From the NCBI GenBank assembly GCA_903908065.1, contig CAIVQO010000043.1, forward strand, positions 1 to 64,000: 64,000 nt of DNA, written 5' to 3'. Made by a program: the position numbers and the translations under genes. The number at the start of each line of letters is the position of its first letter. Positions within the stretch are counted from its first letter, which is position 1. This document shows, one piece after another, positions 57,956 to 61,960 of this stretch. This stretch comes from an uncultured beta proteobacterium (lineage in GTDB: Bacteria > Pseudomonadota > Gammaproteobacteria > Burkholderiales > Rhodocyclaceae). The notes beneath the pieces are model-generated. The model was not told the origin of the DNA. It searched no databases and saw nothing but the letters and a program-made list of their open reading frames with translations.

Positions 57956-58051
57956 TCTGAAACAGGGGGCGCTTTCGGTCGCTTCCCTTCGCCTATCCCA
58001 ACGCCCCGGCTGGCTATCTTGAGTCAGCCGCCACACGACTCCGGGGGAGCA

Positions 58052-59497
58052 ATGAACGCCAAGCGCGCCAAGGCCCACAAGAGCACCACGACCAAGCTCT
58101 TCGTGCTCGACACCAATGTCCTGATGCACGATCCCCTGAGCCTCTTCCGCTTCGAGGAGCACGATATCTACGTGCCGATGATGACCCTGGAAGAGCTCGA
58201 CGCCAACAAGAAGGGCATGTCCGAAGTCGCCCGTAACGCGCGCCAAAGCAGCCGCCTGCTCGACGAAATTGTCTCCGGCGCGGAACACGACATGGCCCAT
58301 GGTATCTCCCTGAGCGGACCTTCGCGAGAACTGGCCACGGGCCGCCTGTTCTTCCAGACCGAAGCCATCAACGGCATCCTGCCCAGTTCCCTGCCGACCG
58401 CCAAGGCTGACAACCAGATCATCGGCGTTGTCATGCACCTCGGGCAGAAGTATCCCAAGCGCCCGGTCATCCTGGTATCGAAAGACATCAACATGCGCAT
58501 CAAGGCCCGCGCACTGGGCCTCGAAGCGCAGGACTATTTCAATGACAAGGTGCTGGAGGACACGGACCTCCTTTACACCGGAACGCGCGAACTTCCCGCC
58601 GACTTTTGGGACACCCACGGCAAGGGCCTGGAGTCCTGGAAAAAGGATAGCCGCACTTATTACCGGATCAAGGGGCCGTTGTGCCCCGAGATGCTGGTCA
58701 ATGAATTCGTCTGGCAGGATGGCCCGCAACCGCTGCAGGCCTGGGTCAAAGTCGGCGCTGGCAAGACGGCGGAACTGGAAACCCTGATCGACTACAGCCA
58801 TGCCAAGAACGCGGTTTGGGGCATCACCGCGCGCAATCGCGAGCAAAATTTTGCGCTCAATCTGCTGATGAATCCGGACATCGATTTCGTCACCCTGCTG
58901 GGGCAGGCTGGCACCGGCAAAACCTTGCTGACACTCGCCGCCGCACTGACGCAAACGCTGGAAACCAAGCTTTTCTCCGAAATCATCATCACCCGCGTCA
59001 CGGTTCCCGTGGGCGAGGACATTGGATTCCTGCCGGGTACGGAAGAGGAAAAAATGACGCCGTGGATGGGCGCACTGGAAGACAACCTCGACGTGCTGAA
59101 TAAGCCCGCCGAAGCGCCCTCCGGTGCCCACGCCGGTGGCAGTTATGGCGGCGACTGGGGGCGTGCGGCGACCATGGACCTGATCCGCAGCCGGATCAAG
59201 GTCAAGTCGCTCAATTTCATGCGCGGCCGCACCTTCCTCAACAAGTTCCTCATCATCGACGAGGCACAAAACCTGACGCCGAAGCAGATGAAGACCCTGA
59301 TCACCCGCGCCGGTCCCGGCACCAAGGTGGTCTGCCTGGGCAACATCGCCCAGATCGATACGCCCTATCTCACGGAAGGCAGTTCAGGCCTCACCTACGT
59401 GGTCGATCGTTTCAAGGGCTGGCCGCACTCCGGGCACGTCACGCTGCAGCGCGGCGAGCGCTCGCGCCTGGCCGAGCACGCCGCCGAAGTCCTTTAG
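58052..59497 (+). CDS. PhoH-family ATPase with N-terminal PIN domain (PhoH2)
   Basis: A 481-residue protein from the ATG at 58052, which follows a strong GGGGGAG ribosome site; an upstream in-frame start has none. The PIN nuclease domain spans about 10-150 (KLFVLDTNVLMHD; VSKDINMRIKARALG). The PhoH/RecD-like ATPase spans about 255-481, with Walker A GQAGTGKTLL near 283 and Walker B FLIIDEAQNLTP near 396. Proteins of this architecture are RNA helicase/RNase toxins or housekeeping RNA enzymes. An adjacent antitoxin (PhoAT) is not seen. It is convergent with dnaB. Confidence 0.88.
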   Translation: MNAKRAKAHKSTTTKLFVLDTNVLMHDPLSLFRFEEHDIYVPMMTLEELDANKKGMSEVARNARQSSRLLDEIVSGAEHDMAHGISLSGPSRELATGRLFFQTEAINGILPSSLPTAKADNQIIGVVMHLGQKYPKRPVILVSKDINMRIKARALGLEAQDYFNDKVLEDTDLLYTGTRELPADFWDTHGKGLESWKKDSRTYYRIKGPLCPEMLVNEFVWQDGPQPLQAWVKVGAGKTAELETLIDYSHAKNAVWGITARNREQNFALNLLMNPDIDFVTLLGQAGTGKTLLTLAAALTQTLETKLFSEIIITRVTVPVGEDIGFLPGTEEEKMTPWMGALEDNLDVLNKPAEAPSGAHAGGSYGGDWGRAATMDLIRSRIKVKSLNFMRGRTFLNKFLIIDEAQNLTPKQMKTLITRAGPGTKVVCLGNIAQIDTPYLTEGSSGLTYVVDRFKGWPHSGHVTLQRGERSRLAEHAAEVL

Positions 59498-59512: not shown

Positions 59513-61960
59513 TCAGTAGCTTGAGCCGGATGCGTGATTCTCGAAGCGGGTGTACTCACCCAGGAAGGTAAGTCGCACGGTCCCGACCGGACCGTTACGG
59601 TGCTTGCCGATAATCGCCTCGGCGGTTCCCTTGTCCTGGGTATCGGGCTTGTAGTATTCCTCGCGGTACATCATCAGAATGATGTCAGCATCCTGCTCGA
59701 TGGCGCCGGATTCGCGCAAGTCACTCATCAGGGGCCGCTTGTCATTGCGTTCCTCAACCTTTCGCGAGAGCTGGGACAAGGCGATGATCGGGACCTGCAA
59801 CTCCTTGGCCAGAGATTTGATCGACCGCGAAATTTCGGAAATTTCAGTGGCCCGATTTTCCCCTTCGCGGCCGGAACTCATGAGCTGTATGTAATCGATA
59901 ACGATCAGGCCGAGCTTGCCAAACTGGCGATGCAGGCGACGCGCACGCGCACGCAAGTCGGTTGAATTGATCGCACCCGTCTCGTCGATATGGATCGGCG
60001 CCTCGTGCAGCTTGCCCAGCGCCACCGTCATGCGGTCCCATTCGTCATCGGTAAGACGTCCCGTGCGCAATTTGCCCTGATCAATGCGACCGACCGAGGA
60101 AAGGAAGCGCGTGGCGAGCTGGGGGCCGGACATTTCGAGGCTGAATATCGCCACCGGCAAGCGCTGGTCTACGCCGACATGTTCAGCAATGTTCAGAGCA
60201 AAGGCCGTGTTGTGGGTAACGACGTAGTTGTCCGTGAGATAGAGATGGGACGGATGACTGACCGCGATACATTGCGCCGGAGCTGTGGTAACCGGGGAAA
60301 TTGAGGATATTGTCAATCGCTTCTGGCGCTGCCATTTCTCCGGAGCTCGAAGCATTTTTTCCGACATCAGGAACAATGAACGCGGCTCCGGATGAGATAG
60401 ATGACAAACGTAAGCGGTTTTGCCCGCGAAATGCTCGCCCGAGGAAGAACGGAAGTGTGGCTGTTTGGTGGTAATCGAGCACCAACCACCCAGTGAGCGG
60501 ACCAGCGCTGCCACGTCATCGGCCAATTGACGACTGGCGGTGGAGAGGCGAACACTCCCCCATTTCTCGACCCAACCATCGGTATCCAGTAGCCCCCGCA
60601 AAAGATCCAGTCGGACGCTACGTGATGCATTCAGGTAGATCTCGGGAATGAACTTGTTTTCAGACCTACTATTCCAGAGACCGAGTCTGTTCAGGACGTC
60701 CTTCAGTGGATTCCGAACGGATCCACTTACGCTCGCGCGATGACCGCGATTATCCTGGACAATTCGGTAATCGTAACCACCAGCGTAGGCGACCTCCATT
60801 TCAGATCCCACTGCCTCGCGAACACGGGAAAGCATCTCAATTGAGGCGGTCGAAAAGCGCAGGCTGCTTCCCGTAAGGCTTCCATCGCCGAGTAATGCGC
60901 CTAATAGCCAGGCATCCATTGGAACCTCGGTGCTTTCGCCAAAGTCTCCGGTGGGGTAGTCAATCCAGATCCGGTTCTTGTATCGAGCCTTTTCCAGCAG
61001 GCCTATCAGGTCGCGCGTCGAAAGAACTCGCGGTTGCTCCCATCCACGGAATGAAACCTTCCACAAATGTTCAGCGCAACATTCCGCGCTGCGTCCGTCG
61101 GAAAAGGTGACACGATAGATCTGCTTTACTCCCTGCGGGAAGACTCCTGTAACCACGGATGGATGACCATCAATCGAGGCAAGCGTGTCCCCAACCGAAA
61201 TGTCACCCATGCGAACCCAGCCCGCGAGTGTTTTTATTTTCGCATTGAGGGGTTGGGCCTTCCCCATTGAGGGCCTGCCGGCAACGACAATCATGTCGCC
61301 GGGTTGCAAACCGGAGGTCATCTTGTCGAGATCGACAAATCCGGTGGCGACCCCCGTGATGTCCGACTGGCTATCGCGTGCGAGCAATTCCTCCATACGC
61401 TCGACCACCTCGCCCAAGAGTGGCTGGATGGCGACAAAACCGTTGCTGTTGCGATTTCCTGCTTCGGCAATCTGGAAGATGCGCTGTTCGGCATCGTCCA
61501 GCAGTTGCTTGACATCGCGCCCAGCCGGATTCAGCGCATTGCCGGCGATCTCGTCGCCTACCGTTACCAGTTGCCGCAGGATGGCGCGCTCACGAACAAT
61601 TTCCGCATAGCGTCGGATATTTGCGGCCGACGGCGTTGCATTGGCGATTTCGCCCAGGTAGGCGAGCCCACCGGTCTGATCTACCTCGTTTGACGCCTCG
61701 ATCGATTCATAGACGGTCACCACATCAGCGGGCCGGCCGTTCTGGATCAGCTTGCCGATGTGACGGAAGATGCGGCGGTGATCATCGCGGTAAAAATCAG
61801 TTTCGCGCACCACGTCACCGATCCGATCCCAGGCTGCGTTATCGATCAGCAGACCGCCGATCAGCGACTGTTCAGCCTCGATCGAATGCGGTGGCAGTTT
61901 AAGTGCAGCGACCTGTGAATCAGTGGCTTGCGGGGGATTGAACGCGCGGACTTGGGCCAT
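59513..61960 (-). CDS. dnaB: Replicative DNA helicase DnaB, intein-containing precursor
   Basis: An 815-residue precursor. After removal of residues 235-584 the extein is 465 residues, normal for DnaB. The N-terminal collar domain is about residues 1-170. The P-loop is split: GRPSMGK (228-234) resumes as TAFALNIAEHV from 585. Later helicase motifs are intact: Walker B LIVIDYIQLM (685-694), SQLSRKVEER, and the C-terminal KHRNGPVGTV. Unspliced protein cannot bind ATP properly, so splicing is needed for the main replicative helicase. It starts at the ATG at 61960 behind a promoter candidate and an iteron array, and is convergent with phoH. Confidence 0.95.
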   Translation of the reverse strand: MAQVRAFNPPQATDSQVAALKLPPHSIEAEQSLIGGLLIDNAAWDRIGDVVRETDFYRDDHRRIFRHIGKLIQNGRPADVVTVYESIEASNEVDQTGGLAYLGEIANATPSAANIRRYAEIVRERAILRQLVTVGDEIAGNALNPAGRDVKQLLDDAEQRIFQIAEAGNRNSNGFVAIQPLLGEVVERMEELLARDSQSDITGVATGFVDLDKMTSGLQPGDMIVVAGRPSMGKAQPLNAKIKTLAGWVRMGDISVGDTLASIDGHPSVVTGVFPQGVKQIYRVTFSDGRSAECCAEHLWKVSFRGWEQPRVLSTRDLIGLLEKARYKNRIWIDYPTGDFGESTEVPMDAWLLGALLGDGSLTGSSLRFSTASIEMLSRVREAVGSEMEVAYAGGYDYRIVQDNRGHRASVSGSVRNPLKDVLNRLGLWNSRSENKFIPEIYLNASRSVRLDLLRGLLDTDGWVEKWGSVRLSTASRQLADDVAALVRSLGGWCSITTKQPHFRSSSGEHFAGKTAYVCHLSHPEPRSLFLMSEKMLRAPEKWQRQKRLTISSISPVTTAPAQCIAVSHPSHLYLTDNYVVTHNTAFALNIAEHVGVDQRLPVAIFSLEMSGPQLATRFLSSVGRIDQGKLRTGRLTDDEWDRMTVALGKLHEAPIHIDETGAINSTDLRARARRLHRQFGKLGLIVIDYIQLMSSGREGENRATEISEISRSIKSLAKELQVPIIALSQLSRKVEERNDKRPLMSDLRESGAIEQDADIILMMYREEYYKPDTQDKGTAEAIIGKHRNGPVGTVRLTFLGEYTRFENHASGSSY
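60209..61258 (-). other. Class 3-type intein with LAGLIDADG endonuclease in DnaB
   Basis: A 350-residue intein (precursor residues Ala235-Asn584) interrupts the P-loop lysine/threonine junction. It begins with Ala, not Cys or Ser. Block B reads CAEHLW, with His298 and Trp300. Block F has Cys564 in PAQCIAV. The ending is VVTHN with Thr585 as +1 residue. This Trp / block-F Cys / +1 Thr set defines class 3 inteins, where the block F cysteine starts the acyl transfer. Two homing-endonuclease motifs are present: WLLGALLGDGSL (351-362) and LLRGLLDTDGW (453-463), both with the acidic residue. The DNA appears slightly richer in AT than the flanks. Confidence 0.9.

Follow-up and report, generated by a model that had tools for sequence, protein, structure and literature searches.

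A predicted full-length class 3 intein at the P-loop of a betaproteobacterial-type DnaB helicase

How can a bacterium use a replicative helicase whose gene is interrupted inside the ATP-binding P-loop? This question is raised by a 64,000-nucleotide stretch of an uncultured beta proteobacterium (genome G000, contig C43, positions 1-64000; termed the window, in its full length), in which dnaB, encoded on the minus strand at 59513-61960 as a single open reading frame (ORF) of 815 residues, carries a 350-residue insert in frame between Lys234 of the P-loop (GRPSMGK) and Thr585, that is, at the site known as DnaB-b. Judged from its sequence, the insert is most probably a full-length, mobile class 3 intein, a reading to which a probability of about 0.92 is given, and splicing is probably essential for the DnaB helicase of this cell.

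The insert in DnaB and its class

The ORF is constructed of a DnaB N-extein (residues 1-234, 61259..61960, ending in GRPSMGK), the intein (residues 235-584, numbered 1-350 within the intein, 60209..61258) and a DnaB C-extein (residues 585-815 plus stop, 59513..60208, starting with TAFALN), all on the minus strand. Pfam recognises in this one frame the DnaB N domain, DnaB_C in two stretches, LAGLIDADG_3 and Hom_end, while NCBIfam assigns the whole ORF to the replicative DNA helicase family TIGR00665 (566.6 bits against a cut-off of 385.25); the top-scoring model, NF005424, falls short of its own cut-off (730.6 against 834 bits). The boundaries are exact and represent no chance reading, because the dnaB genes of 27 of the 30 other genomes of the genus, counted from the rows of the DnaB search, have the N and C parts adjacent and run on without an insert at residues 234/235 and 584/585. 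The location, strand, 350-residue length and insertion between Gly-Lys234 and Thr585 put forward by an earlier, sequence-only reading were all confirmed.

The residue counts given below come from two scans, whose patterns both included TH(N): one of genome contigs with the intein alignment, from which the best 80 of 229 relatives were kept, and a second, from which the best 80 of 585 were kept, so that all counts describe the nearest relatives and not all class 3 inteins. After L069, L071 and L122 had been left out, clustering resulted in 159 intein clusters, of which 108 are viral and 51 bacterial.

Class 3 inteins are hallmarked by the WCT motif, composed of Trp at position B12, Cys at F4 and Thr at G5 (PMC3196547), which corresponds to Trp67, Cys118 and Thr137 in the 139-residue chain of Mycobacterium smegmatis (Msm) DnaBi1 (PMC6195587). 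In the present insert, residue 1 is Ala235 (61256..61258) instead of Ser, Thr or Cys, so that no class 1 nucleophile is available. Block B holds His298 (intein His64, 61067..61069; His in 159/159 clusters) and, two residues on, Trp300 (intein Trp66 at B12, 61061..61063; Trp in 158/159). The block F residue Cys564 (intein Cys330 at F4, 60269..60271) is the predicted first nucleophile, and the insert closes with Thr582 (intein Thr348 at G5, 60215..60217) and with the penultimate His and cyclising Asn, His583-Asn584 (intein His349-Asn350, 60209..60214), followed by Thr585 (60206..60208), which is at once the +1 residue and the P-loop Thr of DnaB. In a phmmer alignment Cys330 stands opposite Msm Cys118 and the final THN opposite the THN of Msm, and a search of solved structures with the sequence of the insert returned the class 3 DnaB inteins 6rix, 6riy and 6bs8 at the top (E 8.6e-11, 2.4e-10 and 7.4e-10). 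The class 3 claim of the sequence-only reading is thus borne out by a complete signature and by the nearest solved sequences, and its Ala start, its Trp two residues past the block B His, its block F Cys and its terminal HN were all seen; its choice of the +1 residue Thr585 as the T of WCT was wrong and is rejected, given that this Thr belongs to block G position 5 (PMC3196547, PMC6195587), namely Thr582, third from the intein end like Thr137 of the 139 residues in Msm.

In addition, a LAGLIDADG homing endonuclease domain occupies about residues 108-312 of the intein (60323..60937), a part that the sequence-only reading had missed. Both of its LAGLIDADG helices retain their acidic residues, Asp125 in the first motif LLGALLGDG (60881..60907; Asp in 148/159 clusters) and Asp227 in the second motif LLRGLLDTDG (60575..60604; Asp in 152/159), and structure prediction likewise models the insert as a splicing domain with a LAGLIDADG endonuclease.

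A class 3-like intein may also be decayed, resembling class 3 in looks only, as in Arthrobacter, where such an intein is a pseudogene (PMC3196547). The Arthrobacter intein is without Cys F4 and His B10, whereas here all signature residues are present and the frame is open in the sole DnaB match of a genome that is 99.59% complete, which makes an inactive intein highly implausible.

Splicing and the helicase

By the known class 3 mechanism, Cys564 would attack the Lys234-Ala235 bond, after which the acyl group would be transferred to Thr585, and cyclisation of Asn584 would leave Lys234 joined to Thr585 and the P-loop rebuilt. Before splicing, the helicase is expected to be unable to bind ATP, so that the cell would live on the spliced form of DnaB. 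The assembly G000 (3.84 Mb, 103 contigs) contains one copy of the intein and one whole-DnaB match; a second DnaB-like match, present in some other genomes of the genus (for example G002, G018 and G024), is not found in it. Since this single match in a genome of such completeness has an interrupted P-loop, the helicase very probably depends on splicing, which lends indirect support to the dependence proposed by the sequence-only reading.

The intein might further have been domesticated as a splicing switch, as proposed for Msm DnaBi1, in which the block F Cys, when oxidised or bound to metal, would keep DnaB unspliced and replication paused. Msm Cys118 forms a disulfide with Cys48 (PMC6195587), and zinc is bound there by Cys118, Val119 and Tyr128 (PMC7360933); the spacing of this zinc site is matched in the present intein by Cys330, Ile331 and Tyr340, with the Cys and the Tyr kept. 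Moreover, block B offers Cys294-Cys295 (intein Cys60-Cys61, 61076..61081; C60 in 115/159 and C61 in 95/159 clusters), where Cys61 occupies the Thr/Asp place of TxxH/DxxH, likewise in 45 of the 51 bacterial clusters. On the other side, the Msm partner Cys48 is replaced by Ile47 in the phmmer alignment, so that a second Cys of the Msm type is missing, and the patchy distribution in the genus, described below, is more in keeping with a mobile element than with a regulator that is retained. By analogy, splicing may respond to redox state or metal, but a switch as the main role is not what this distribution suggests, and we regard it as unlikely; the replication switch considered by the sequence-only reading has no support here.

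Arrival in the genus and relatives elsewhere

At E 1e-20 the intein was detected in only one of 31 genomes of the genus, G000 itself. Three genomes fall outside the 27 with an uninterrupted gene: the dnaB fragments of G029 miss the site, and G016 and G020 gave no DnaB match. The sister genome G008 has an uninterrupted dnaB, whose two exteins are 98% and 99% identical to those of the window in protein and 86% and 88% in DNA. The composition of the intein also departs from its surroundings, with a GC content of 54.7% and a GC content at third codon positions (GC3) of 57.4%, in comparison with a GC3 of 67.9% and 72.4% in the exteins and a mean of 75.4% (standard deviation 5.0, range 65.4-81.3) in 12 window genes; its GC3 is lower than that of every one of 204 tiles of 350 codons taken from these genes. 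On such sequence evidence, the intein looks recently acquired in this lineage.

An old inheritance within the genus, followed by loss elsewhere, would accommodate the relatives that occur elsewhere in the order, where 19 of 399 sampled genomes, counting the window's own, match at E 1e-20. It is at odds with the absence of a match in 30 of the 31 genus genomes, with the deviating GC3, and with the observation that the intein resembles inteins of some other phyla (51-56%) about as closely as those of Burkholderia and Polynucleobacter (49-61%); old vertical inheritance is accordingly rated very improbable. For the recent acquisition, it is envisaged that the endonuclease domain, whose two acidic residues are intact, would cut an uninterrupted dnaB, whereupon the intein would be copied in, and that it would have come from a source outside the genus, plausibly via a phage-borne dnaB such as that in L022. 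On this viral contig, DnaB is accompanied by a replication initiator of phage type and by a repressor-like gene.

The idea that DNA flanking the insertion had been co-converted was also considered and dropped, as 100-base tiles compared with uninterrupted relatives gave no clear step in identity near the site. Directly beside the insertion (60206-60208 and 61259-61264), Gly is encoded by GGG and Thr by ACG in the window; the uninterrupted genus genes compared with it use GGC and, except L014, ACC. This difference may be accidental or may be left over from copying of a donor sequence.

Beyond the genus, 77 of the 80 genome-scan loci had two readable ends; all 77 lie at DnaB-type P-loops with Thr next, and the N flank is RPSMGK in 75, RPAMGK in one and, in one, GK cut off by the contig end. 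Hosts named among the best 80 of the 229 relatives include Burkholderia, Paraburkholderia, Trinickia, Polynucleobacter, Limnobacter, Dyella, Caulobacter, Rokubacteria, Electronema, Phycisphaerae and others. By these sequence matches, such inteins are frequent in the host group and in DnaB helicases of bacteria outside it; given the 229 relatives, the view that the setting is rare or unique is rejected. Among named phages, matches occur in 469 of 50,697 records, all below 60% identity, and among plasmids in 28 of 72,556 records. One of the latter is the IncC plasmid pKAZ5, in which the conjugative coupling gene traD hosts an intein relative (L245 1501-2607, matches H43-H46).

The quick tree of the 159 clusters, many of whose deep forks are open, places the window intein in a starred clade of 54 (SH-aLRT 97), whose members all belong to the group defined by similarity of the DnaB C-extein. 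This group comprises 51/51 bacterial clusters, the window's included, and 27/108 viral clusters; as it was built by single linkage, RecA-like helicases that are more remote may be included as well. Inteins from Brachymonas and Polaromonas metagenome-assembled genomes are the neighbours of the window intein with weak support (80), and within the same clade the L022 intein pairs with L003 (support 94).

Further inserts are seen in other records. The partial Comamonadaceae record L069 has, past its P-loop intein, a second insert in DnaB with a Cys start and the end HN followed by Ser, before SGAIEQ, and ORFs of about 1,230-1,280 residues in L081, L085, L090, L095, L097, L098 and L145 suggest a second insert there too. 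Relatives of 131 residues at P-loop-like sites in L064 (161-553) and L067 (602-994) are too short for an endonuclease domain.

Several points weigh against the reading of the insert as a mobile class 3 intein of recent arrival. The intein is known here from its sequence and predicted fold, with splicing and cutting both predicted, and the fold scores tie with those of other inteins, so that fold alone cannot tell class 3 from other splicing domains. Gain in this species over repeated loss in the genus rests on parsimony, and several of the compared genus genomes are incomplete (70-100%). Intein identity to the window's own barely tracks that of the C-exteins (r 0.11, 79 loci), which is what horizontal movement would produce, but the picking of these loci by intein similarity restricts the range and lowers r by that alone. 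Finally, no direct donor is known, because the closest intein among the loci kept, that of Burkholderia guangdongensis (L077), is 61% identical, as is that of L069.

The insertion site, and known systems

In the 159 clusters, Lys precedes the intein in 154 and Gly-Lys in 147, and Thr or Ser follows in all, although the counts of Lys at -1, C330, T348, H349, N350 and the +1 residue are partly conditioned, because N boundaries were set by script at a Lys no farther than 12 residues from the tblastn start (five loci by hand) and most C boundaries by THN, the block F Cys and a +1 Thr, Ser or Cys. When tblastn ends alone are used (205 loci), 162 begin at intein residue 1, with Lys preceding in 159 (the exceptions being L181, L216 and L217), and 203 reach residue 350, all of them followed by Thr (172 loci) or Ser (31 loci). 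The cluster exceptions to Lys at -1 are L181, L207 (a chaperonin), L216 (SNF2, different site), L217 and L223 (PhoH, different site).

The C-exteins of the clusters sort into 31 groups. In sampled hosts, Pfam identified AAA, SNF2, PhoH, AAA_23, terminases, RecA, AAA_24, AAA_5 and a UvsW-type helicase, with a KaiC-like ATPase under the cut-off; no Pfam host domain was obtained for L041, L046, L151, L202, L214, L181, L217, L169 and L176 (intein or endonuclease models, or nothing), and three further match stretches gave intein models only, with no host domain. On the tree at least 43 host-group changes are needed, in comparison with a possible minimum of 30 and an average of 79.3 for shuffled labels, so that hosts change repeatedly and are nonetheless markedly clustered. 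The starred branches require no fewer than five changes for the SNF2 type and no fewer than two for DnaB. A DNA recognition sequence common to the host genes was not found: among the 81 clusters whose C-extein is not of the DnaB group, third codon positions within 24 bases of the site hold at most 0.10 bits, except for the choice between AAA and AAG at the Lys codon.

It may be, as a tentative proposal that we hold somewhat less probable than its opposite, that the lineage targets the motif Gly-Lys followed by Thr or Ser rather than a gene, having passed on several occasions between nucleotide-binding proteins that are unrelated to one another (DnaB, SNF2 and other helicases, PhoH, RecA, AAA, SMC-like proteins and terminases), nearly always such that the Lys-Thr/Ser bond is rebuilt and with almost no DNA shared beyond those codons. 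Insertion between Lys and Thr is the classic P-loop insertion according to PMC5050341, which also cites a proposal of a phage origin for class 3 inteins; because the same paper describes class 3 inteins of phages at different sites in terminases, a P-loop rule is not valid for all class 3 inteins.

Other placements were also observed. One relative lies in a chaperonin (Cpn60; L207 3725-6358), outside the P-loop NTPases, and another separates GK from T in an ORF that resembles DNA polymerase A, is not a P-loop protein and has a frame ending 19 residues on (L039 2465-5113). PhoH with a PIN domain adjoins dnaB in the window (58019-59497, plus strand) and has no intein; PhoH hosts relatives in L036 and L223.

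A literature search on class 3 or DnaB inteins in proteobacteria, Burkholderia and Polynucleobacter, judged by title and start of the abstract, yielded no treatment of these dnaB inteins and one paper on Burkholderia IcmO (PMC5222942), which, because most subscription papers lay outside the search, is weak evidence only for their being undescribed. The intein appears to be a genuine member of a family that is already known and is common in helicases of other bacteria and in phage ATP-binding proteins. An essential betaproteobacterial-type helicase is seen as very probably reliant on class 3 splicing. The locus provides a class 3 DnaB intein that bears an endonuclease and has a natural uninterrupted sister (G008) suited to homing tests, and it points to a large set of such inteins in bacterial dnaB and phage NTPases.

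With respect to known systems, PI-SceI (1vde), the class 1 intein of yeast VMA1, shares 23% identity with the window intein over the aligned part. Msm DnaBi1 (6bs8) is likewise a class 3 intein at the DnaB-b site, but it is a mini-intein of 139 residues with no endonuclease, a +1 Ser, DxxH in block B and Cys48, whereas the window intein has an endonuclease, a +1 Thr, CxxH and Ile at the place of Cys48. The M. chimaera DnaB-1 intein (6rix, 6riy), a class 3 intein (PMC7664689) also located in DnaB, is the best sequence match among solved chains and, unlike the present one, is a chain of 145 residues without an endonuclease domain. The class 3 mini-intein of Burkholderia vietnamiensis IcmO is betaproteobacterial and its splicing has been demonstrated (PMC5222942); it differs in its small size, in its plasmid gene and in its host protein, IcmO rather than DnaB. 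The endonuclease-bearing dnaB inteins of Burkholderia, Polynucleobacter, Trinickia and others (L070-L148) agree with the window intein in gene, site and architecture, the nearest of the loci kept being about 61% identical.
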